A stretch of 64,000 nucleotides of DNA from Cystobasidiopsis lactophilus (taxonomy: Eukaryota > Basidiomycota > Agaricostilbomycetes > Agaricostilbales > Chionosphaeraceae), in the NCBI GenBank assembly GCA_001599975.1, contig BCIO01000002.1, positions 620,001 to 684,000 of the forward strand, in the 5' to 3' direction. The stretch's first letter is position 1. Each line of letters starts with the position of its first letter. The notes below the pieces were generated by a model. It was not told the DNA's origin. It made no database searches and saw only the letters and a list, made by a program, of their open reading frames with translations. Shown piece after piece: positions 1 through 48,725 of this stretch. Position numbers and translations under genes: made by a program.

Positions 1-3000
1 TCGAAGTTCAGATCGACGATGATGACGACGAGGAGGAGAATGGCGGTCGAGGCGGCAACGCCAACCGAAGCCGCCCTGACCTCCAGACTTTCAACGTTTC
101 TCTGGATTTGGTCGCCAATATCAACCTCGCAGACCTCTCGCTTTTCATCAAGGGCGAAAAGAAAGAGTCCGGAGACGTTCAGGCCGCTCTTATGGCTCTC
201 AACACCATGATCAACCACTCGCCTTGGTCAAAGTACCCCAACAAGAAAAACAGCTTCTTCCCAGCCAATGTCCAGCGTATCGCCGTCCAGGGTGGCGGTC
301 ACGGAGGCGGTCGAGGTGGATTCGATCGCGGAGGTGCGTCGAATCAGTGGTGTGCACCGGCCTTCTTGCTCACTTTTGCCCTCATCCAACAGGTCGAGGC
401 GGAGTAAGTTGCCTTCTTTCGCATCGATGTCGGGCAAACTGACCTCGAGATCCCCTTAAAGGGACGTGGCGGTGTGAGTGGCTTTCTATTTCCGCTCTTT
501 TTCGATGCCTGAGGACGAATTGCCTTTACAGCGCGGCTTCGGCGGACGTGGAGGCGGACGCGGCCCCGTTCTCACCAGTACCATCGGCGCTGAGGTCATC
601 CAGATGGGCCTCGAGATGTGGCGAGGTGAGCTTGGACGCTCGGAGCACCACTTTCAAAACCTGAAAGTCATTGATGCGATTCTCATCACAGGCTACTACA
701 CCTCTTTGCGCCCTGCTCTTGGGAAGCTTATTATCAACGTCGACGTTGCCCACCAGCCCTTCGTCGTGGGCGGCAATCTGATCCAAATCGCCTTGGCCAT
801 CATTGGCCAGAACGAGCCCCGCGACTTGATGGGCGCCGTCGCTGGTCATTCGGCCAATCGCCGCGACATGACCAACCTAGAACGCACTTTGAAGGGCTGC
901 GAGATTCGCGCCGACCTCGGCCCTTCCGGTGGCTTCACCCGCCGCAAGATCAAGGAGATCGGCAAGGTCCCCGCCCGCCGCCAGATGTTCACATTGCCCA
1001 ACGGCACCGAGACCAGCGTCGAGCAGTACTGGCAGTCGCAATTCAATGTCCGCCTCCAGCACCCCGAGCTGCCATGCGTTCGCGTCTCCGCTAATGCTTG
1101 TGAGTTTTGGCGCGCATCGTCTCGAAGGCTAATAGCTCATCTCGCATCTTTCCAAAGGGTACCCGTACGCATTTCAGTTGTCCCTTTGAAACTGGTTGGC
1201 TGACTTCGACTGGACAGCATCGAGGTCTGCACGCGTGAGTATTCTTTGTTGATTCCAAATGACAAAGTGCTCACGGACGATGTCTCCTCAGTCAAGACTG
1301 GCAACAAGTTCAATAAGACTTTGACGCCCGATCAAGTGGCCCAGGCCATCAAGTTTACCACCTTGAAGCCTCAAGAGCGCGGCGACTTCCTCCGTCGCAT
1401 CGAGTTCCTCTCGCCCGACAAGAATCCGATCCTGGAGACGGCCGGCCTGTCTTTCGACAAGAACCCCATGACTGTGAAGGCCCATATCTTGCCTTCACCT
1501 GATCTCTTTTTGTGGGGTTGCTGTCTCAAAGGGTGGCCTTCTTTATCTAACGACGTGTGTGTTTAGCTCTGGACGTGGCAACGACCGCATGCCTTGCCGC
1601 ACCGCCAACGGCGAATGGAAACAAGGTTCTTTGCACTTTCACAATCCGGCCAGCTTGCGCCACTGGATGGTCATTGTTTTTGCCGACGAGTGAGTTCGTT
1701 TCCCGCCTTGACCGCCTACCCTACATCTGAAAGAGCTTCACAGCCGCGGCCGCGCCATCGCGCTCCAAGAGATCCAGGACTCCGTGGGCCAGCTGGTTAT
1801 AGCGGTCAGTGCTGCCGTTGTCTGTACAAAGAATCGATTTTCTGACTTGATGAGTGTCACAGTGCGAGAAGAGCGGCATGCAGATTGCTGACCGTTCCCC
1901 CAGGATCCACTTCAGTTCGCGTTCTCCTCCTTCATGTGTTGGTGTGGGCTCTGACTTTGTTCTTCAGCTGGTCGCGACAGTGGCAACGATGTCGAGCGCA
2001 TCTTCAAGGCTGAGGGCGCACGCTTCCACCAAGAGAATGGTAGGCCTGTATCATGTTGTACAGACGGACTAGGGGTAAAGACGGTTCCACAGACGTAGTG
2101 CCGCAGCTTCTTCTGTGCTACTTGCTCAACACCGCCACCAACTCTCCGGGTGAGTTTGCCCTTCTCTGTCTTTCCGACTTCACTTCCGACTTCACTGCTA
2201 ATATTTAACGCAGACCATGCCGCTATCAAGCCCTTCGGTGACCAGGACCAGTGCGTGTTGTCTTCGCGTTTTGTTTTCGGCCTTCCTGACTTCAGGGCCT
2301 CGACAGCGGTGTGGCCACTCAGTGCTTGGTCCGTGACCATTCCTCTTGTTCTCTATCTGGATCTGAGTATTTTGCTTCAGTCTATTGACAAGGTCAAGCG
2401 CAAGGGCAGCGCTCAGTACTATGGCAACGTTGCGCTCAAAGTCAACGTGAAGCTCAGCGGCGTCAACCAGACTTTGGGTACGATTTTTCCCACTCTTTTC
2501 ACGATCCAATGTTTGAATTTGTTATCCCCCACAGACCAACGAGGCCTGCAGGAATTCAACAACGAGCCTTGTAAGTTCCCTTGCTCTTGTTTTACGGCCT
2601 TGGCTTAAGCGTTATCTTCGTGCATATTAGGCATGATCATGGGCGCCGATGTGAGAAGCTCTGTGGCTTTAGCATTTGACGCATACTCATGCTCTCGGTC
2701 TTCGATGTTCACAGGTCACCCACCCAAGCCCCGACTCCCGAGACCCTTCGTTCTCGGCTTTGGTCGGCACCATCGACCAGCACGGCAGCATCTACTCCTC
2801 CTCCACCCGCATCCAAACGGGCCGCAAAGAGAGCATCGAGGCTTTGGACGTCATGACCGAGGAGATTTTGGTCGCCTTCCACAAGCGCAACAGCTGCTAC
2901 CCCAAAAAGGTTATCATCTATCGGTGCGGGCGTTGTCGAAAATTGAAGCTACTTCAATCTGATTGCTTACTCTTGCAGAGACGGTGTTTCGGAGGGCCAA

Positions 3001-3954
3001 TTCCAGATCGTGCTTCGTGATGGTGGGTTGTTGGACGACTCCAATAACCGAGGCCGTGCCTGACTTGTCTGACAGAGCTGCCTGCCATTCGACAAGCTTT
3101 CAAGAAGGTCACCAAAAGCGACGTCCCCGTGACCTATGTCATTGCTGCTAAGCGCCGTGAGTCCACTGCTTCCTTGGCACTTTCAGCTCAATGCTGAGCC
3201 CCAGTGCAGACCACTTCCGCTTCATCCCTACTGACTCGCGCAAAATCGATCGCACTGGCAATGCACCCCCTGGCACTGTGCGTTGTTTGATGTCCTCTCG
3301 CCATTCCGAAGTTGGGCTCACTTTCGGAATCAGGTTATTGACACGGGCATCGTTTGTAAGTCTTGGTTCTACACAGACTCCTGCCTATATCTCACATACG
3401 CCATCAAGCTCCTGGCCAATGGGACTTCTACTTGCAGTCGCACGCCGGTTTGTTGGGCACCTCGCGCAGCTCGCACTACACCTGCCTCATTGGTTCGTCT
3501 CACCTACCAAACCAAAGCCTTTCTGACCTTGAGCTCTCTGTAGACGAAAACAACTTCACTGCTGACTCTTTGGCGGCCCTGACCTTCAACCTCTGCTTCA
3601 CCTACGCCCGAAGCACCCGATCTGTTTCCATTGTCACCCCTGCGTGAGCCACTGCCCCTCTTGACCACCGCACACCTTTCTGACTGAGCCACAGTTACTA
3701 CGCTCACCGAGTTTGCCAGCGCACCAAGGAGCTTGCCAGCCCAGCTTTTGACGACAACGCTAGCATCAGCGGTGCGTCGTCCTACTCCCGCGCTTCCGAG
3801 GAGAGCGAGGAGCGCCGCCAACGCAAAGAGGTGTTCGAGAAGAACTTGAAGGGCGTGCACTCGAATCTGCGCGAGGTAAGGGCACTTTGAGTATTCGCCA
3901 TCGCTTTTTTGGGCTAACAGGATCTGTGCCTTGCAGACTCTCTACTACATGTAA
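1..3954 (+). CDS. Argonaute (RNA silencing slicer), 5'-truncated by window edge
   Basis: Argonaute binds small RNAs and cuts or silences complementary transcripts. The 5' end lies outside the window; the reading frame enters at position 3. In order I see a Gly/Arg-rich N-terminal region, the ArgoN/linker block ([14 protein letters not shown], 595-720), PAZ-side sequence to about 1490, MID sequence to about 2500, and a PIWI domain from MGADVTHPSP (about 2638) to the terminal LYYM stop at 3952-3954. The slicer tetrad looks intact: D in GADVTHP, E in [10 protein letters not shown] in RDGVSEGQF and H in YYAHRV. At least ten short introns interrupt it. The family assignment is certain; individual exon borders in the PAZ/MID part are approximate. 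An intact tetrad implies that the host has catalytic RNAi. Confidence 0.95.
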
Positions 3955-11462: not shown

Positions 11463-12700
11463 TCATATTCGCATCAGTCGCCAGACACCATCCACTCGCA
11501 TCCACATTCTCTCCTCCGCATCCTCGAGCGACATCGCCAGAACGGGGCCCCGAATCGGCGCCTTCAGCCCAAGCTCCTTCCATTGGTCCCAACCGGAGTA
11601 GATGGACAAGTGGGGCCTGCCGTTGACAGGGTGGATGGACTTGATGCGGCCGGTGTAAGAAAGCAAGCGGAGCTCCTTCAGGTTTGAGAGCAGGGTGGAA
11701 TCTTCAAAGCAGGACGAAACCGATGGGCCGGGGACGCCGGAGCTCCAAAGGTAACAGCTGATTGAAAGGACCTCGAGAGAGGGAGGCAGCTTGTCAGAGA
11801 CCAACAGCTCCCGTATGCTGCTGAAAGAGAGCGCGTGGTACGAGATGCGTAGGGTTCGGAGAGAGGTAATCGCAGCCAAGGAAGGAATCGCGCTGCAATG
11901 CAGGTCGCCGTAGCTGTGCAACAGCTCCAAATGGGCGACTCGAGAGCCTGCCAGGGCGGCGACCAAGTCCCGCTCTTCTGCGTCCGCTATATTGACCAGC
12001 TCTAAGTGACGCAGAGCAGGCGACAGAAAAGGGTTGTTTGGAGGTGAAAGAGCACCCCAAACAAAGTGGAGGCGAAGTGCTGTTATTCCGGACTGAAAGG
12101 TTTCGTTGGTGGTTTCAAAGACTGCGTTTTGTAAGGTCAAGGTGGTGATAGTCGCAAGGAAAGAAACCAGACGAAAGACTGCGATGGAGCCAATGAGAGC
12201 CTCTGGCAGCCCGAGCAAGACCAGAGTCGTCAAGGTGGAGTTTGGCGAGGTCAAAGGGAGGAACGCTTGATACTGCAGCCACTGTGCATACGCGGACAGA
12301 ACGTCAGCTGGATTAATCCAGTCCAGGATGGAAGACTCGCCCTGTTGAAGGCGTTGAGCAAGAGGGAGTTGCACCCTCGCAAGCAGAGCTTTTTCAAGTT
12401 GGCGCAGCGGCTGGAAACGCCCACAATCAAGCCTGCATCGTTGACTTCGCGCAGGCTCACGTCCAGTTCTTTCACGAGAGCGCCCAGCCTGCCCATGGAG
12501 CCATCCAGCGTGGTGAGCAGCTGAGAAGCCAGCTCCGACCTCTGCGGGTATGTCGCTCGGAGGAGGATCACGGCATGGAAGCGTCTGGCTTGGATGGCGG
12601 GCAACGTGGCTCGACAAAGAAGCTTCAGAGCATCATTGGGCGACAGGTAGCCGATAATGTGCTCGATGATCTCGATAGGCAGTTGCCAGCCGTGGGCCAT
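11463..12700 (-). CDS. F-box/LRR-like protein 2
   Basis: Same family as its neighbours: box WQLPIEIIEHIIGYLSPNDA at the N-terminus, CANLKKLCLRG, then LRR-like strands (LRHLELVNI, VAHLELLHS, SLRTLRISY, SLEVLSISC, LKELRLLSY). Exons 12341-12700 and 11463-12281 give 392 aa. The joining intron 12282-12340 is 59 nt with a GCGAGT donor and GCACAG acceptor, a GC-AG intron in phase 0. With GT donors only, no splice restores the frame, so automatic annotation would probably call a frameshift or pseudogene here. I chose Met at 12700 because it sits just before the box, as in the paralogues; an upstream in-frame Met at 12778 exists. Confidence 0.78.
12282..12340 (-). other. GC-AG intron, F-box gene 2
   Basis: Donor AGG|GCGAGT, branch-like CTGAC, acceptor GCACAG, 59 nt, phase 0. 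Position matches GT-AG introns of the three paralogues, which supports it independently of the donor dinucleotide. Confidence 0.75.
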
Positions 12701-13080
12701 GGCTAATTGGCTTCCAAGCTTGTAAACTGAGCGCAGGGTCGGCGTGCGATGCGTCGAGCTCAAGCTCTGCTCCTTCAAGATGCAGAGCGCAGTCTGTTGG
12801 TGCAGTCGCTGAATTTCAGGCGGAGCTCGTCGTGGGACAAGCTGTCAACAGGCTGAGCCTGAGCCTGGTCAAGAGGTGGGCCCGTTCGGCGGACTTGAGG
12901 TAACAACAGCTTTGTTGTGGACTCTCTCTAGATCAAGTACAGCCCAAAAGAAGTAAGACCAAAGTGCTACAACCAATCTACAGAGATTTCGCAAGCTATA
13001 ACTCAAACCCGTCCAATCGACTGTCGGACCGCCACCTTGGGCTGTTCGTCCCATCATAGCCTGCATCCCACTACAGCACT
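12701..13080. other. Intergenic, 380 nt
   Basis: Between two same-strand F-box genes. It should contain the promoter of F-box gene 2 and the 3' UTR of F-box gene 3. No open frame with family resemblance and no repeat seen. Confidence 0.5.
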
Positions 13081-14247
13081 TCAAGCTGGACTCCCATCAA
13101 GCGGTTCGGCGCTGATCCAATCCCACGGCACCCCCAGCGTCAAGACGAAGCCCGGCCGACCAGCGAACGTAAAGGCTGAAGGAGCGCCACCTTGCAGGCC
13201 ATGGAAAGAGAAACGGCGCAGATGAGGGAGCCTTCTTGCTGTTTGAAAGATGGAAGGCAGCGAGGCATGGTGCGCGCTTTCCAGCTCGTCGTACCAAAAG
13301 GTAGGGGCGCCGACCTCCACCTCTTCTACGCTTGCCGGCAGATACTGAAGATACTGCGCCAAGTCATCGGTGTTGCACTTGCTGTATTGAAGCCGCAAGA
13401 TCCGGAGCATATCACACCGCGAAAGATCGGGCGGCGATGAACCTGCGTCGAGCGGGGCCTGCGAGAGATGCAGCTCTTCCAAATGCTCGGCGACTCTTGC
13501 GACAATCGGCGCATAAAACGAAGAGTGAAGGCCGTCCAAGTTGAGGTAACGAATAGCCGACGTGAGGAGAGGAACTTGATTGGTTGTCCGAAGGATGTTG
13601 CCAGACACGTTGCACAGACGAACCGACTGAAGGGCGCTGAGAGCTCCTGGGAAGGTGTTGGATGGAGCGAAAGCCACACGGTCGACAGAGAGCGTCTCCA
13701 AACACGGGCAAGCGCTTAAGAGGAGATAGAGGGAGAAGGACGGGAGCAGCAGGTCGGACGGGCCAGCCACGATCTCCAGGTGTTTCACTTGCGGCAAGCG
13801 CAAGCTCTGTGTCCACGAGTTCAGCGAGGGTTCTTCTTCCTCCTCTTCCAAGAAGGCTGGCCTCACCTTCGCAAAGACCTCCACGGCTGTAGCGTTACAG
13901 TCCGTCAAGGAGAGCTTTTGCAAGTTCGGGCAAGCTGTGGTGAGTCTTTGACCGAATGCGCCAGAGAGGACAGAGGGCAGGTGCAAGGAGAGGTCTCGAA
14001 TCAGCTCGAGAGGTGCCATGATGCCATCATTCACACCTCCGTTCAGCAGGCTCCACTTGCGCTCCCCGTTCTTCGGATTGACATAATCGCTGGCCAAGGT
14101 AACTTTAGAGTATAAGCGATGCCGGATCGACCTCAACAACGCCATGCAGAGAAAGCCCTGCCAGCTCGACCCCACGGGGGAAGGCAAGAGCTCGATAACG
14201 CGTTCTACGAGCTCGACTGGAAGCTGGGGCGGCGAGACTGCGGCCAT
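13081..14247 (-). CDS. F-box/LRR-like protein 3
   Basis: N-terminal box QLPVELVERVIELLPSP, then CPNLQKLSLTDC and LRR-like strands (LETLSVDRV, LEELHLSQA, LRILRLQYS, LRRFSFHGL). The whole 388-codon frame is open, but 13807-13866 is a 60-nt segment with GTGAGG donor, GCTGAAC branch-like site and ACACAG acceptor, in phase 0 and at the family intron position. Spliced, the protein is 368 aa and aligns better with its paralogues; unspliced it gains 20 residues with six consecutive Glu. I therefore read exons 13867-14247 and 13081-13806. Divergent from the membrane-protein gene at 14864. Confidence 0.78.
   Translation of the reverse strand: MAAVSPPQLPVELVERVIELLPSPVGSSWQGFLCMALLRSIRHRLYSKVTLASDYVNPKNGERKWSLLNGGVNDGIMAPLELIRDLSLHLPSVLSGAFGQRLTTACPNLQKLSLTDCNATAVEVFAKVRPAFLEEEEEEPSLNSWTQSLRLPQVKHLEIVAGPSDLLLPSFSLYLLLSACPCLETLSVDRVAFAPSNTFPGALSALQSVRLCNVSGNILRTTNQVPLLTSAIRYLNLDGLHSSFYAPIVARVAEHLEELHLSQAPLDAGSSPPDLSRCDMLRILRLQYSKCNTDDLAQYLQYLPASVEEVEVGAPTFWYDELESAHHASLPSIFQTARRLPHLRRFSFHGLQGGAPSAFTFAGRPGFVLTLGVPWDWISAEPLDGSPA
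13807..13866 (-). other. In-frame 60-nt intron (false acidic tract), F-box gene 3
   Basis: GTGAGG...ACACAG, 20 codons without a stop. It encodes an acidic stretch absent from the three paralogues, which have an intron at exactly this point. Confidence 0.7.
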
Positions 14248-19970: not shown

Positions 19971-20858
19971 ATGTTCAACTTCTTGCGCTCGCTCTTGATT
20001 GTCCTTTTCTCTGCTCTTAGGAACGTCTACAACATCGTTGTCCAGCTCGCAGCGCCCACCATTGGCCTGGACCCCGCGTCCAAGCCCTCCCCCGCGCCAG
20101 CGACTACCTCAAACCAGCCTCGCAAGTCCAAGCTTGCCAGCCCGCCCCAGCCTGTGCCGGCACTCAATAGCCATGCCCAGCCTGAAGCAGCCACTTTGCC
20201 GTCGAACGCGTTCGCCCGCGTCCCTGCACCGGCCTCGGAAACGGAGGCGGAGAAGCGCAGGAGGCGCCGTCGAAATCTACAAGCGTCAAGCCGCCGTCTG
20301 CTGGGCAAGACGAATTTGGAGGCTTGGGGGAAGGGCGTCATCAGTGAGGTTCCTGTCTGAGCTCTCAAGCACACAGCTTATCCCTGACACTGTTGCGCTT
20401 TCTTCAGTGCCTCCGCTTGCCCCCCTTTACAAGGAAGTGACACAAAGCAACGGAATGTCCAACCTTTGCCCACCCTTCGAGGGGTTTCAGGCCAATGTCG
20501 CTCATGGACCTCCAGGGCCTCCAGGGCCGGACAACTTTGCCAATCCCGCCTTTCACAAGCTTGCCAACCTTTCCACNNNNNNNNNNNNNNNNNNNNNNNN
20601 NNNNNNNNNNNNNNNNNNNNNNNNNNNNNNNNNNNNNNNNNNNNNNNNNNNNNNNNNNNNNNNNNNNNNNNNNNNNNNNNNTGCCCACCCTTCGAAGGGT
20701 TTCAGGCCAATGTCGCTCATGGACCTCCAGGGCCTCCAGGACCGGACAACTTCGCCAATCCCGCCTTTCACAAGCTGGGCAACCTTTCCAAAGCCACTAG
20801 ATCTACGTCGACTAACTCTTCCCGTATCCTTGCCCCGGCCTTTAAAACGGACGGGTAA
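19971..20858 (+). CDS. Tandem-family gene A with 35-residue repeats, crosses assembly gap
   Basis: Exon 1 (19971-20349) starts MFNFLRSLLIVLFSALRNVY, a hydrophobic leader, then a Pro/Ala/Ser-rich stretch and a basic run (EKRRRRRRNLQ). A GTGAGG...TTCAG intron (20350-20408) leads to exon 2, which holds a 35-residue repeat containing QANVAHGPPGPPGPDN (collagen-like GPPGPPGP) and NPAFHKL. A run of Ns interrupts it; a second full repeat follows, then a tail ending at 20858. Exon 1 is related to copy C and to the relic B. Not recognised as any known family. The reading frame across the gap is uncertain because the gap size looks estimated. Confidence 0.5.
20461..20780 (+). repeat. 105-bp tandem repeat (35 codons), partly in a gap
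   Basis: Unit 1 spans 20461-20565 and starts AACCTTTGCCCACCC. A third unit lies at about 20676-20780 and differs from the first at only a few bases (for example GAGGGG versus GAAGGG, TTGCC versus TGGGC). The start of a middle unit, AACCTTTCCAC, is visible at 20566 before the Ns. The unit is a multiple of three and stays open in one frame. Confidence 0.85.
20577..20681. other. Assembly gap (105 N)
   Basis: Run of Ns inside the tandem repeat. The flanking copies are 215 bp apart, 5 more than two 105-bp units, so the true length is probably different and the repeat number is unresolved. Confidence 0.98.
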
Positions 20859-28895: not shown

Positions 28896-30006
28896 ATGGC
28901 TAAAAGACCGCACCTGCCTGTCGAGATCATCGAGCAAATCATCGCAGAGCTCGAGAACAAAGCGGATGCCCTCAAGTTTCTTGGCGCCCACGCCCTGCTT
29001 CGAGCTGTCAGATGTCGACTTTACCGTGCCATCGAAATAGAGCACTTGGCTTTGTCCAGACTGTCTCAAATTCTGAGTTCGGTCCGGAGCTACACGCATC
29101 TGGTCCAGTCTGTCCATGTGGCGACTTTGACACAATCGCATCTCGACTTTGCTTGCGCTGTCGTTCCCACCTGCCATAACCTGAAAGAGCTCCATATCAA
29201 AGCAACATCTACGTCGCAAATCGTTCGTTTGGCCAAGGTAAATCATTTGGGCCTTCCTGACACCGGGAGAGCTCAATTTGGGTGGCGTTCAGGCTTGGAC
29301 GCTCACGCTTCAACCACCCTCTGGATCATCTTTGACGAAGCTCGAGGTCATAGGTTATTTTACTCTCATCAGGGGGCCTGCAACTCTGCAGCTATTGTCT
29401 CTGTTTCCAGCTCTTGCAAGCGTGGCCGCGCTGAATGCAGAATTCGCTTTCGCCGGCCCCCTCGCACTGCCTCCAATTCAAAAGTTGCGCCTGGAAGATT
29501 GCAAAGTCTTGCAGCCTCAGAGTAACCCTCTACTTGCGCTTCCTCTGCGGCACCTGGAGCTAGTCGACCTCAACGACCGAGCTGGACACCAGATCATCCA
29601 AAACCTGGCAGGCCATCAATTGGAGACCTTGGAGCTCATCCACGCGTCGTCGGATGACTTCTCTATCCCTTCCCTTGTCAAATTCGCCACTCTGCGAAGT
29701 TTGCACCTCTCGCACACCGTCTTCTTCTTGGCTGATCTTCACGCGCTGCTGGCCGCTCCCATACTTCCGTCTTCTCTGGAGGTCCTCTCCATTAAGGCTT
29801 GTGACATCGACATTTGCGCCTTACAAGCTCTCTCCGGCGTTACCTTTCCTCCAGCCCTGCGCCAATTCCACCTTGTCCCTCTGTGTGATCCGCTCAGAGT
29901 CACTCACTCCGTCCTAGAAAATCAGCGACAACAACCACTGCACGTCTACCTCGGCTTTGAAGATCCAGAAGACTTTGAATTGGAGGCACTGGTGGCGGAG
30001 ACTTGA
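28896..30006 (+). CDS. F-box/LRR-like protein 4
   Basis: Starts MAKRPHLPVEIIEQIIAELE, the same box as the 9.7-14.2 kb cluster, then CHNLKELHI and LRR-like strands (IQKLRLEDC, LRHLELVDL, LETLELIHA, LRSLHLSHT, SLEVLSIKA). Exons 28896-29237 and 29293-30006 give 351 aa; the 55-nt GTAAAT...TTCAG intron (29238-29292) is phase 0 at codon 114, the family position. The clear GT-AG intron here is the template for placing the introns of the other three. Dispersed 15 kb away and on the opposite strand. Confidence 0.82.
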
Positions 30007-44357: not shown

Positions 44358-44978
44358 TCATCCTCTCTTGAAACCTAACTTTCTCTGTTCGCAAAGAAGA
44401 GTCATATCAGAATGGTGGCTTTGGGGGCAAGAGCAAAAGAAAAACCTACCCGTTCGTAAAACAGGTCGGTCTTGGACGAGCCGATGTTGATGATCTTAGG
44501 GCACCCGTCGCGGTCCTTTTCTAGTCTGTAAGCTTCAAATGTGAGTCTTGATACCAATAGTGAAGAGCACGAAGGCTTACCTCGTGCATTCAGCGCAGTA
44601 GTAGGCATCTGAAATTCCCGGGTGGCCGCAAATGATGCACTTTCCGCCGTAGCTGCCAAAGTTGCACTCGTCGCAGATTCTGACGAGCGTTTCCGGCCGG
44701 ACGTATGAGTCGCAGTTCGGGCTTCGTGGCTCTTTGTCAGCTTGGGTGCGCTAAGAAGGATTTGAAGGGCAGCTCACCATTTGCCGTCGCACTTCTCGCA
44801 AAGTCGCCCAATTGCTGTCACGTTGCGTCAGTCTGAGCTGTAAAGACGTGCTGAAAGAACTCACCAATGCCAGGCAGCTTCCTGCAGAAGATCAAGTCCG
44901 GGTTGTGCTTGGCTGGCAAAATTTGGCGTGAGCTTGCATAAGGGCAGACTTTCGAAGGGATGTGCTCTTACCTGCCAT
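44358..44978 (-). CDS. RDS3: Rds3/PHF5A, SF3b splicing-factor subunit
   Basis: Small zinc-knot protein of the U2 snRNP SF3b complex. ATGGCAG is the 7-nt first exon, joined to CCAAGCACAACCC to read [20 protein letters not shown]. Motifs [48 protein letters not shown] and [19 protein letters not shown] are all present, with the full Cys set. The last intron is needed: without it the frame runs to a false end at 44402; spliced, it reads [12 protein letters not shown] and stops at 44358-44360, matching the family's FYERKKYGFKKR. About six introns in a gene of roughly 110 codons. Confidence 0.94.
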
Positions 44979-45297
44979 GTTTTCAAGTCCTCGCTTGGAT
45001 AGGAAGAAGCTTTCAAGGTGGCGAGGTCGAAGCCGTCGCTGAAGGAGGGCAACATGTGTCGAAGCAAGGTGGCGATCGCAAAAGTGCTGCTGACAAATCA
45101 CTTGTCCCTTGCCACTCGCTGACTACTGCGAAGCTTCCAGCAACCAGCGAAGAACAATAGAGGAGCAGTACTCTCAGTGGAATAGGACAGGAGAAGGGCG
45201 TGTGATGCTATGGACGGCTGCTTTTTGCAGCTTTTGTCATTTCAATTCATAAAGCGTTTCTTTTGCGTGCAAGTTGCAACCTAGCAAAACCTTGCGT
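44979..45297. other. Intergenic, 319 nt
   Basis: Between two minus-strand genes (Rds3 start and CipC-like end). Nothing else supported. Confidence 0.5.
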
Positions 45298-46219
45298 TTA
45301 TTGGTAGTTCTGCTGGTAGTAGTCGGAAGCGGCCACTGTGAGAGTGCGGTGTATTAGCGCTGAATGAGGCAACCAGGATGTGCGCAAAAGGCTTACGCTC
45401 GGCTTGCTGTTTCCACAAAGCAAATGCGTCAGTCTCCTGTTTTGAGCATCAGTACAGACTACGAACCTTCTTGGCAGAGTGCTATGAGAGAGGTGTGAGA
45501 CTGAAGTCAAGGGAACGACAAAAATAGCGCAGCAACTCACCTTGGCCTTCTCCTGTTCGCCGGGAGCATGCGTGCGTTAGAGTATTCTCACAACGTTAGC
45601 CGGTCACCTACCTTCTCAATGAAGGACAGGCCCTTGGTCTCGGCGAGCTTGTCGACCTCGGCACCAGCGAAGCTGGAAAAGCAGTCGTACTTCAACGCCC
45701 AATCTGATGAACAAGACACCTTGGTGCTCACCCAGCGGCGAGCTCCTTGATGAATTGGTGGCTCTGAAGATGCATAGCTAAGTTTGAACCCCTGGCAACG
45801 CGCGAGCCGTGCGCTCACCTCAGGCTTGCCGTTGGCCTCTTCGTGCTTCTCGTAGGCACGGGCAGCGGCCTTTGAAGCCGACGTGTAAGCACCAGCCGAG
45901 AACCTAGCAAGAGGGAAAGTATTCACGAAAGCAGCAGCGCCAGCAATCACTGCACGTTTGCGTCATAACGCATTGAGCTCTCGTGCTTTCAGCCTTTGGG
46001 GGCAGCAAGGCAGCAAGCTCACATTCGTGGCCGAAGGAGGCCTCAGGGGCAGAGTTCTGGACCTGGTTGTAGGCCTGAGCTTGCTCGGAGTCGTGGCTGC
46101 GCAGCGAGCGGCTTTAGATTGAAAAGCCATGATGCGGCGCGCAGGAATGGGAGCACACCTGCTGCAGCGTCAGTACAGGGTCCTGAGGGCTGGGATTGGG
46201 CTCACCTGAAGAATCCCAT
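45298..46219 (-). CDS. CipC-like (DUF3759) stress protein
   Basis: Fungal family first described as a concanamycin-induced protein and later linked to stress and antagonism in wood-rot fungi. First exon ATGGGATTCTTCAG, then HDSEQAQAYNQVQNSAPEAS, FGHE, IAGAAAF, AARAYEKHEEANGKPE, SHQFIKELAAG, FAGAEVDKLAETKGLSFIEK and a C-terminal end ASDYYQQNYQ with the stop at 45298. It is spread over about nine short exons, several below 30 nt, so ordinary frames show it only in pieces. Exon borders in the 3' third (45300-45600) are approximate. Cytosolic; biochemical role unknown. Confidence 0.85.
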
Positions 46220-46608
46220 TGTATGTGTGTGTTTGCTTATTCGTGAGAGGAAGCGGTGGTAGGGGAGCAAGGAATGCGATGGCTTCCTCTTGCGCGAGCG
46301 GATCACCTCGCCTCTTCCTTTCGATCGTTTCCCACGGTTCTTTTCTAAAAATAGGGCGCAGCCCAAAGCCTAGAGCTAACGGTGACTCCGCGTCGCAGGC
46401 GCAAAAAGGGGTGGCAAGACGCGTTCAAACGTGCGGTTTCATCAAGACGGGTATCGAGCTCCTTTCCTTCAAGAGGCGTGTGTGTTACAAGGGGGCCCTC
46501 AAGAAAATGTCCATCGTGTGTCTGCGCATCTCTTGAAAACCGAGTGGAGAGAGTAGGGGGAGAAGGAGGTATCGAGGACGGGTGCACAAATGGCTAGCGA
46601 CGCCGTGT
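46220..46608. other. Intergenic, 389 nt
   Basis: Promoter of the CipC-like gene and 3' UTR of Pmp3, both minus strand. No other feature. Confidence 0.5.
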
Positions 46609-47306
46609 CTAGTACTTGAGAATGATGTCTGTTTCGCCGTCGTGTCAGTATCTCGCTCATCGGACGTGTTGGCTTCCTACTCACAGAGGGCCTGACAGTG
46701 GCGAAGGGTTGGAATGAGAGCGAACAGGGCAACCGTAATCGAGAACCTACATGGATAATGCCTGCGAAGTGAAAGGGAGGTCAGCAAACGACCGGCAAGG
46801 GCAGAAGAGCATCGAGCTTGCCTGGAATGTAGCCCAAGATCTAGTTGCAGGAGTGGTCAGACGAACGTCCAACACCGGGCAGGAGAGAGCAGCTCACGGT
46901 CAAGAGGACGTTGATCCCTTCGCACGAGCGTTAAGCCGCGGGACCTTTGCTGGCCAGTTGCAGGATTGTTTCACTCACAGAAATCAGCGGCGCAACCACT
47001 GGGAAGCAAAAGTGAGTCTAAGGAAGACGACACAAGAAGGCGCGGAAGACGTACCGCTCGAGGAAGACGCCGACGGGCTGGGCAGGCACGGGATCTCAGC
47101 ACAGAGCCTCAGCAGGCTGATCAGCGACAGGGACACACGGGCAGAAAGATGGCAAGGATGATCTTGCAGCTGTTGAGCGCAAACGAGTCAGGACTTTCGT
47201 TCGCCACAGCAAGAGGAGGCCTCGGACATGTCAGACGCGGCTGAGTTCGGGAGCAGTGTTAGAGCGGTCAAAAGGCTTTGTAGTGGTTGGACTTACTGAA
47301 AGGCAT
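46609..47306 (-). CDS. PMP3: Plasma membrane proteolipid 3 (Pmp3), ten exons
   Basis: Small two-helix membrane protein that affects membrane potential and salt tolerance. Exons on the minus strand: 47297-47306, 47228-47240, 47139-47169, 47055-47077, 46979-46998, 46898-46917, 46822-46840, 46751-46761, 46685-46691 and 46609-46628. They sum to exactly 174 nt (57 aa plus stop). The product reads MPFTASDICKIILAIFLPPV, GVFLERGCAADFWINVLL and TILGYIPGIIHALYIILKY, nearly identical to the family and of standard length. Nine introns of about 50-60 nt; exon 9 is 7 nt; intron 46762-46821 has a GC donor (GCAAGC). Divergent from Dcc1. Confidence 0.95.
46685..46691 (-). other. 7-nt microexon of Pmp3
   Basis: GCCCTCT between AG and GTGAGT; supplies Ala, Leu and the first base of Tyr in IHALYIILKY. 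No other reading of the region restores the invariant C-terminus. Confidence 0.9.
46762..46821 (-). other. GC-AG intron of Pmp3
   Basis: 60 nt, donor CAG|GCAAGC, acceptor CGCAG; splits the Gly codon of YIPGIIH. Confidence 0.9.
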
Positions 47307-47490
47307 GGTGTTGTGCTAGTGCTTTGTCGAAGTGTCAAAAAGCGCCTTCGGAGGACGGTGGAAGCAGGCCAAGAAGTTGAAATGCGATGACGTTGAACTC
47401 GGCGCTGCTGAAATTTTGGAAACTGAAAGCTGCTTGTGGTGGTCGACGTTGTTCGAAGTGCACCAATTCAGGCTCGAGAAATCCGACAAA

Positions 47491-48725
47491 ATGGACGTGT
47501 CGTACTCAGAGTTGAGACCCAACACGACCTACTCGCTTTTGGAGCTGCCGCCGGAGTTGTTGAAGCTGCTCGAAACCGAATCCGCGCCCTTCGCCATCAA
47601 AGGCAGCACGGCGGACGAGACGGTGCTCTGCTCGCACAAGCAGACATATGCTGTTCGCGCGCAGAAGAACTCGAACACCATGATGTTGTGCCTGCCGACC
47701 AGCGGGGGACTGGAGGTGGTGTCGACCTTGCACCAGACTTTGGACGTGTCACTTGCGCGCCCCAAGCTCGAGCGCATCAAGGAGCTCCTCAAAGGACAAG
47801 AGTGGTCCAATGAAGATGAGGAGGGTGCCCCTTTGGTGAGTTCTCGACCTTGAGACCGACGAAAAGCCCTTTCTCCGAGGCTCACGCGTGTGGCGACAGA
47901 GCAAACGCATCAGGCGATTAGACAGGCAGACCCTCTCCAGCCTGATTCAAGCTTCGACACTAGAGATCGAGGTGGCCTTGCAGAAGCAGCGCATCCTCCA
48001 AGTCGGAGCTTATATGCGGCCATGCGCCATGAGCTTCCTCCCACACGCCCTCCAAACCCTCCTGCAAACCCTGGACGACAAGCCCTCAAGTCAGGCAGAG
48101 CTCATCACCAAGTACTCGGAGGAGCTCGAGGTGGACCGGCCCATCGCAGAGCAGATCCTCTCGTGGTTCCAAGATTTGGAGCGCGAGACGGACGTGGAGG
48201 AAATCGTGACCGAGCTGGGCAAGACGCTGCTGTTGACCTGGAGGACTCGGAAGGAGGCGGTCAAAAGGGACGGGACGGTCGAGCTATCGGCTTTCATGGA
48301 CCAGTGGAAGCGCATGGCCGGCGATGCGGCAGAGAAGTATTGCGACTTGGTAAAGCTTGAGGTGTGCACCATTGATGCTCAATTCGTACAGAAGGTGTAC
48401 TGAGCTGTGGTGGTGATGTTTCACAGGGACTATTCATCCAAGACGGCAGCGTCCTCCGAGGCGTCCCACCCGATACGCTGCCCATCGAGCCCGCAGCCCG
48501 CTTTGCGCACCTGTTTGCTCTCAAGTCCAAATGGAAGCCGGAGGATATGCAGCCCGTGCGTTTGGCCACCTCTGCGATCATCCTATTCCAAAGCTGATGC
48601 TGCGGTGGGCTGCGACACAGTTCCTACAGGGCATCACTACGACGGACAAGGAGAAGGAGAAGTGGGTGCTCAAGTGTGTGCGCAAGCTCAAGGAGGGCAA
48701 CGCCACCGTCTGGGTGCCTCGCTAG
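47491..48725 (+). CDS. DCC1: Sister-chromatid cohesion protein Dcc1 (alternative RFC subunit)
   Basis: Subunit of the Ctf18-Dcc1-Ctf8 clamp loader. Starts MDVSYSELRPNTTYSLLELP; the family signature FAIKGSTADETVLCSHKQTY follows, then NSNTMMLCLP, VALQKQRILQVGAYMRP, a winged-helix-like C-terminal part (SQAELITKYSEELEVDRPIA) and GLFIQDGSVLRGVPPDTL, ending NATVWVPR. Three or four short introns. An in-frame upstream Met at 47332 would add 53 poorly conserved residues. The 184-bp gap to Pmp3 is a shared divergent promoter. Confidence 0.88.

Follow-up and report, generated by a model that had tools for sequence, protein, structure and literature searches.

A very probable Pmp3 gene of 57 codons divided among ten exons, down to 7 nt in length, in an intron-dense fungal genome

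The window analysed here, a single 64-kb stretch of DNA taken at its whole length, carries on its minus strand (47306 to 46609) a Pmp3 gene whose ten predicted exons join into an open reading frame of 174 nt, i.e. 57 codons and a stop codon. From 5' to 3' the exons measure 10 nt (47297..47306, with the start codon at 47306), 13 nt (47228..47240), 31 nt (47139..47169), 23 nt (47055..47077), 20 nt (46979..46998), 20 nt (46898..46917), 19 nt (46822..46840), 11 nt (46751..46761), 7 nt (46685..46691) and 20 nt (46609..46628, ending in the stop codon). They are separated by introns of 56, 58, 61, 56, 61, 57, 60, 59 and 56 nt in phases 1, 2, 0, 2, 1, 0, 1, 0 and 1, respectively, which together occupy 524 of the 698 nt of the gene (75%). 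The initial annotation had given the exon lengths, the coordinates of the gene and a sum of 58 codons, all of which proved exact, and an intron share of about 75%, which agrees with the present figure; its count of seven exons of 20 nt or less is to be corrected to eight of ten. Nine of the ten are 30 nt or shorter, and the longest exon is that of 31 nt.

The joined exons translate into MPFTASDICKIILAIFLPPVGVFLERGCAADFWINVLLTILGYIPGIIHALYIILKY, a predicted membrane protein of 57 residues in a frame free of internal stops, which fits the family size of ~50-60 residues; other marks of Pmp3 are a place in the plasma membrane and an influence on membrane potential or salt tolerance. The protein matches the Pmp3 profile PF01679 over its full length (92.1 bits, E 2.1e-26, profile positions 1-49 of 49), far above the Pfam gathering cut-off of 22.9 bits, and the proposal that these exons rebuild Pmp3 is borne out. 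When the protein was used as a query, its identity to bacterial plasmid records ranged from 61 to 69% among the ten listed of 97 with a match, and the solved structures matched at E values up to 1 were 7ueb chain F ('PscF | Ric1 protein', 3.1e-05) and 5z9o chain A (0.85). Pmp3, RCI2 and YqaE make up this family (PF01679), and it is in gene structure, with nine introns, that the present member differs. A Pmp3/YqaE-like gene was also observed in four viral contigs of IMG/VR, whose best segments are 55-60% identical to the fungal product.

The Dcc1 cohesion gene (47491-48725, plus strand) lies back to back with Pmp3, and the gap of 184 nt between the two divergent starts (47307..47490), delimited by the gene finder and Pfam, is likely, from its position, to hold a shared promoter. 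On the other side stands a DUF3759 (CipC-like) gene (45298..46219, minus strand), which is intron-dense and includes exons predicted at 10, 12 and 15 nt (gene finder and Pfam). The next gene but one is PHF5-like (44358-45055, minus strand), with six predicted exons, the first of which is doubtful in the model; in other organisms PHF5 belongs to the splicing complex SF3b as one of its subunits. Further away, the predicted proteins at 11463-12700, 13071-14247 and 28896-30006 have similar N termini (LPVELVER-like), appear F-box-like by eye and possibly form a local family. Positions 20577-20681 are 105 N, an assembly gap, and a search of the window for tRNA genes and for Rfam matches at gathering thresholds returned none.

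The exon borders were examined by spliced alignment of four intronless homologues (three plasmid records and one viral contig) to the genomic strand, with introns of 45-90 nt allowed freely. The alignments scored 147, 129, 139 and 105 as compared to 35-44 for the best unspliced ones; 100 shuffles per query gave means of 26-27 (SD 3.1-3.9) and maxima of 43, 35, 39 and 37, corresponding to z values of 31.0, 33.5, 32.4 and 23.0, respectively. All four queries place exons 4 to 9 identically at either end and share the 5' border of exon 10, the alignments ending 3-6 nt short of the end of that exon. Exon 3 is complete, and the 3' border of exon 2 is found, in three of the four, the fourth covering exon 3 from 47162. 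The 5' border of exon 2 is given by none, as two queries begin within this exon, that of the viral contig stops short of it and the left end of the Rhizobium query lies seven bases further out, at 47247; exon 1 falls outside all four alignments. The Azospirillum query, the sole one tried against both strands of the whole window, scored only 44 at its next-best place.

A homology-free gene finder, combining codon, donor, branch, acceptor and intron-length terms, was self-trained on the window minus the genes touching 46400-47450; its starting splice-site preferences came from general fungal knowledge and were set after the Pmp3 introns had been read. The final listing of this held-out finder contains exactly the ten Pmp3 exons (46609-47306, score 11.7), while six dinucleotide-shuffled windows yielded 0, 0, 2, 0, 0 and 1 genes, each with one intron at most and a top score of 3.5. 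Shuffled homologues and shuffled windows both score far lower, and chance assembly of the exons is rejected on the query shuffles together with the held-out finder. The placing of exon 1 and of the 5' end of exon 2 relies on the finder, the start codon, the reading frame and the usual N terminus of fungal Pmp3; read upstream from exon 2, the frame meets a stop before any ATG. The Pmp3 RNA would, on this evidence, be spliced into the predicted ten-exon form.

It is unlikely, though the least so of the alternatives, that the gene is real but differs from the model in one or two junctions, most probably at exons 1 and 2 or where intron 2 has its weak signals, or that it is frequently mis-spliced. 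Exon 1 and the exon 2 start lie beyond the homologue alignments, as described above, the donor of intron 2 is weak, and the first round of the finder, also with ten exons, placed the 5' end at 47681. Against this, 47306 was chosen from the second round on, and retention of intron 1 or 2 would end the protein after 12 or 20 residues.

The introns of the ten-exon model have the ends GT-AG in eight of nine cases and GC-AG in intron 7 (60 nt, 46762..46821), which has CAG before and GCAAGC after its 5' junction and a CTGAC branch motif. The best-scoring branch 7-mer contains CTNA in eight of the nine introns, with the exact CTGAC in four; the top 7-mer of intron 1 is TTTTGAC, and CTAAC is also present in this intron. 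Judged by the GT-AG or GC-AG ends and the CTNA-type branch motif, these are introns of the major (U2) type. Weak donors are seen in intron 2 (GTCCGA) and intron 7 (GC), and GC donors make up one of nine in Pmp3 versus two of 164 among the introns predicted elsewhere. GC-AG introns usually carry a strong donor context, as intron 7 does. Splice-site scores of the nine Pmp3 introns (mean 8.58, SD 1.63) fall somewhat below the level of the 164 introns predicted elsewhere (mean 9.67, SD 2.15), which argues against stronger splice sites offsetting the short exons. These lower scores, and the weak donors of introns 2 and 7, count against the model.

The Pmp3 introns span 56-61 nt, and their median of 58 nt is also that of the rest of the window. 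An intron length typical of the surroundings, combined with very short exons, suggests recognition across introns, so that the intron definition put forward in the initial annotation appears the likely mode. Intron definition has been extended to basidiomycetes by a published comparison of splice variants from 42 eukaryotes (PMC2397502). Each Pmp3 intron would most likely be recognised as a unit across itself, and exons down to 7 nt could thus be tolerated with no need for exon-spanning contacts. Adjacent introns may be taken out one after another, because the 7-nt exon hardly has room for two sets of splicing factors at once. We consider it highly probable, from the DNA sequence, that this is a nuclear and very probably working Pmp3 gene of an intron-rich fungus, most likely a basidiomycete, whose 174-nt coding sequence is split by nine ordinary spliceosomal introns, and which represents the extreme of an intron-dense genome with other exons of 7-20 nt. 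The sequence, its frame, the splice signals, the homology and the density within the window are shown directly, whereas splicing of the RNA in this form, intron definition, stepwise removal and the fungal group are the parts that we infer; the assignment to basidiomycetes is based on the dense and short introns and on the general look of the proteins. Its seven consecutive exons of 7-23 nt offer a compact natural test of the floor of exon length under intron recognition, and of whether neighbouring introns must leave in order.

The nine introns, so alike in length within so small a gene, might also have arisen recently by copying of a mobile intron (introner-like elements) that has struck the gene repeatedly, and the closest pairing of any Pmp3 intron with the other 164 does score 25 versus 22 in a single shuffled set. 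The mutual similarity characteristic of such elements is however at the shuffled level, as evident from a best pairwise score of 22 and a mean of 12.1 for the nine introns versus a mean best of 20.9 and a mean of 12.3 in 20 shuffled sets; among the other introns the best score is 27 versus 29 when shuffled. A recent origin of this kind is thus quite improbable, the comparison bearing on recent copies and not on old, diverged introners.

In Pmp3, retention of any one of introns 1 to 7 or of intron 9 brings a stop into the joined frame and gives a wrong protein, while retention of intron 8 shifts the frame. Skipping of any single internal exon also shifts the frame (eight of eight), and the length in multiples of three that marks cassettes of alternatively spliced microexons is found in none of the eight; as 38 of 135 internal exons elsewhere are divisible by three, this is only mildly unusual. 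Both Pmp3 introns with a length divisible by three contain a stop, versus 31 of 50 elsewhere, two being too few to judge. Single retentions and skips all spoil the protein, leaving one productive form among those tested. It is conceivable, but rather improbable, that selection keeps the gene shattered in this manner and that its output is gated by splicing fidelity, falling for example under a stress that slows splicing; Pmp3 would in that case serve in nature as a sensor of splicing, and might have more introns per codon than any other fungal array. Least probable is a degenerate or unexpressed copy with a better one elsewhere in the genome, the search for Pmp3 having covered the 64-kb window; ten exons free of frameshift or stop, nine intact pairs of intron ends and a full-length conserved protein speak against decay.

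The gene finder predicts 32 genes with 205 exons in the window. With 51.7 introns per kb of coding sequence, Pmp3 is the densest of the 32, the other 31 having 164 introns over a coding length of 36,204 bases, or 4.53 per kb. At a uniform rate 0.79 introns would be expected in 174 nt, and the probability of nine or more is 1.6e-7; as density differs from gene to gene, this value marks Pmp3 as an outlier and not as the product of a special process. The second densest is the neighbouring DUF3759 gene, with 20.7 introns per kb as predicted by the finder. When a 57-nt intron kept by the finder in this gene is removed, its Pfam match becomes one stretch of 115.7 bits versus two at 99.7, and the gene then comprises ten exons, nine introns and 330 coding bases encoding 109 residues. 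The initial description of the Pmp3 intron density as extreme holds as far as the rank among the 32 genes is concerned, but it is overstated in view of nine introns in the 330 bases of the DUF3759 gene and of the 15 of 135 other predicted internal exons that are 20 nt or shorter.

Exons of 7-17 nt fall within the Pfam alignments of three other genes. The Argonaute gene (268-3954, plus strand; PAZ and Piwi domains, N terminus probably incomplete) has 27 predicted exons, including ones of 7, 10, 11, 17, 18 and 20 nt, of which those of 7 and 17 nt lie in the PAZ alignment; exons of 14 and 17 nt lie in that of a CXXC zinc-binding protein, and exons of 12, 15 and 10 nt in that of the DUF3759 protein. 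Small exons within the conserved domains of other genes suggest that tiny exons are a habit of the whole genome, with Pmp3 at its tail. The Pfam check covered 15 of the 32 predicted genes, namely Pmp3, a set of nine that all matched, and a set of five in which three had no match, one was above the cut-off and one below; with this partial support the gene models elsewhere, and the window-wide intron and exon counts, are approximate.

The effect of a minimum exon length on recovery of the gene was followed with the same finder, first and last exons being exempt. A minimum of 8, 10 or 12 nt for internal exons truncates Pmp3 and loses its true 3' end, and at 15 nt or more the gene is lost altogether. 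The expectation that gene finders would miss or misbuild this gene is thus correct for those with a minimum internal exon length, but not for a simple self-trained finder lacking one, which builds it exactly; since the held-out finder recovers it, failure is a property of finders with exon-length limits and is not inevitable in principle. The locus is a demanding benchmark for annotation, as even a floor of 8 nt on internal exons is enough to spoil the model.

Schistosome micro-exon genes have a large part of their coding sequence in very short exons, mostly multiples of three, which are used for protein variation. The coding sequence of the present gene is likewise finely cut, whereas its internal exons include no multiple of three (0/8). 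Micro-exon genes of schistosomes are named in PMC11121469. Among members of the Pmp3 family, the Brassica RCI2 genes, which are plant relatives, have one intron, or two in one gene (PMC8775908), and a predicted intron is listed for PMP3 of N. castellii (PMC4202332). A partial literature search found no description of a Pmp3 gene with this many introns or of microexons in Pmp3, and no paper under the wording of tiny exons in basidiomycetes.

Short introns and tiny exons are shared with Cryptococcus neoformans, which has 3.35 introns per kb of coding sequence, a median intron of 56 nt and a smallest exon of 1 nt (PMC3990503), and with the P450 genes of Phanerochaete, where exons start from 6 nt (PMC1184071). 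The Cryptococcus figure is, however, an average, as compared to 51.7 per kb in one gene here, in which no exon exceeds 31 nt. The P450 gene CYP621A of Fusarium has a one-nucleotide exon in a conserved motif that gene models misbuild and RNA reads support (PMC12940212); that case is a single tiny exon backed by RNA, whereas Pmp3 has nine of ten exons at 30 nt or less and is known from a DNA model. Other papers report about six introns per gene in Rhodotorula toruloides, with five of six genes studied regulated by introns (PMC5124236), and an average exon of 254 nt in Rhodotorula graminis (PMC4585186). A survey of 590 species gives a mean ratio of intron to exon length below 1 in all fungi (PMC11649378), in contrast to 524 to 174, or about three, in this gene. 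Fungal exons of 1-10 nt are already published, and Pmp3 adds a striking extreme that is chiefly a test case for splicing and annotation; in all probability the gene is real, and it takes to an extreme the small-exon phenomenon known in intron-rich fungi.

An explanation of the intron density by high expression, as read from codon bias, was rejected, as the density is not correlated with the use of C versus T at third positions in the 32 predicted genes (Spearman 0.10, p 0.60). The third positions of Pmp3 itself are ordinary (35 C and 12 T; Fisher p 0.87). For gene length, the corresponding correlation with intron density in the 32 predicted genes is -0.33 (Spearman, p 0.07).
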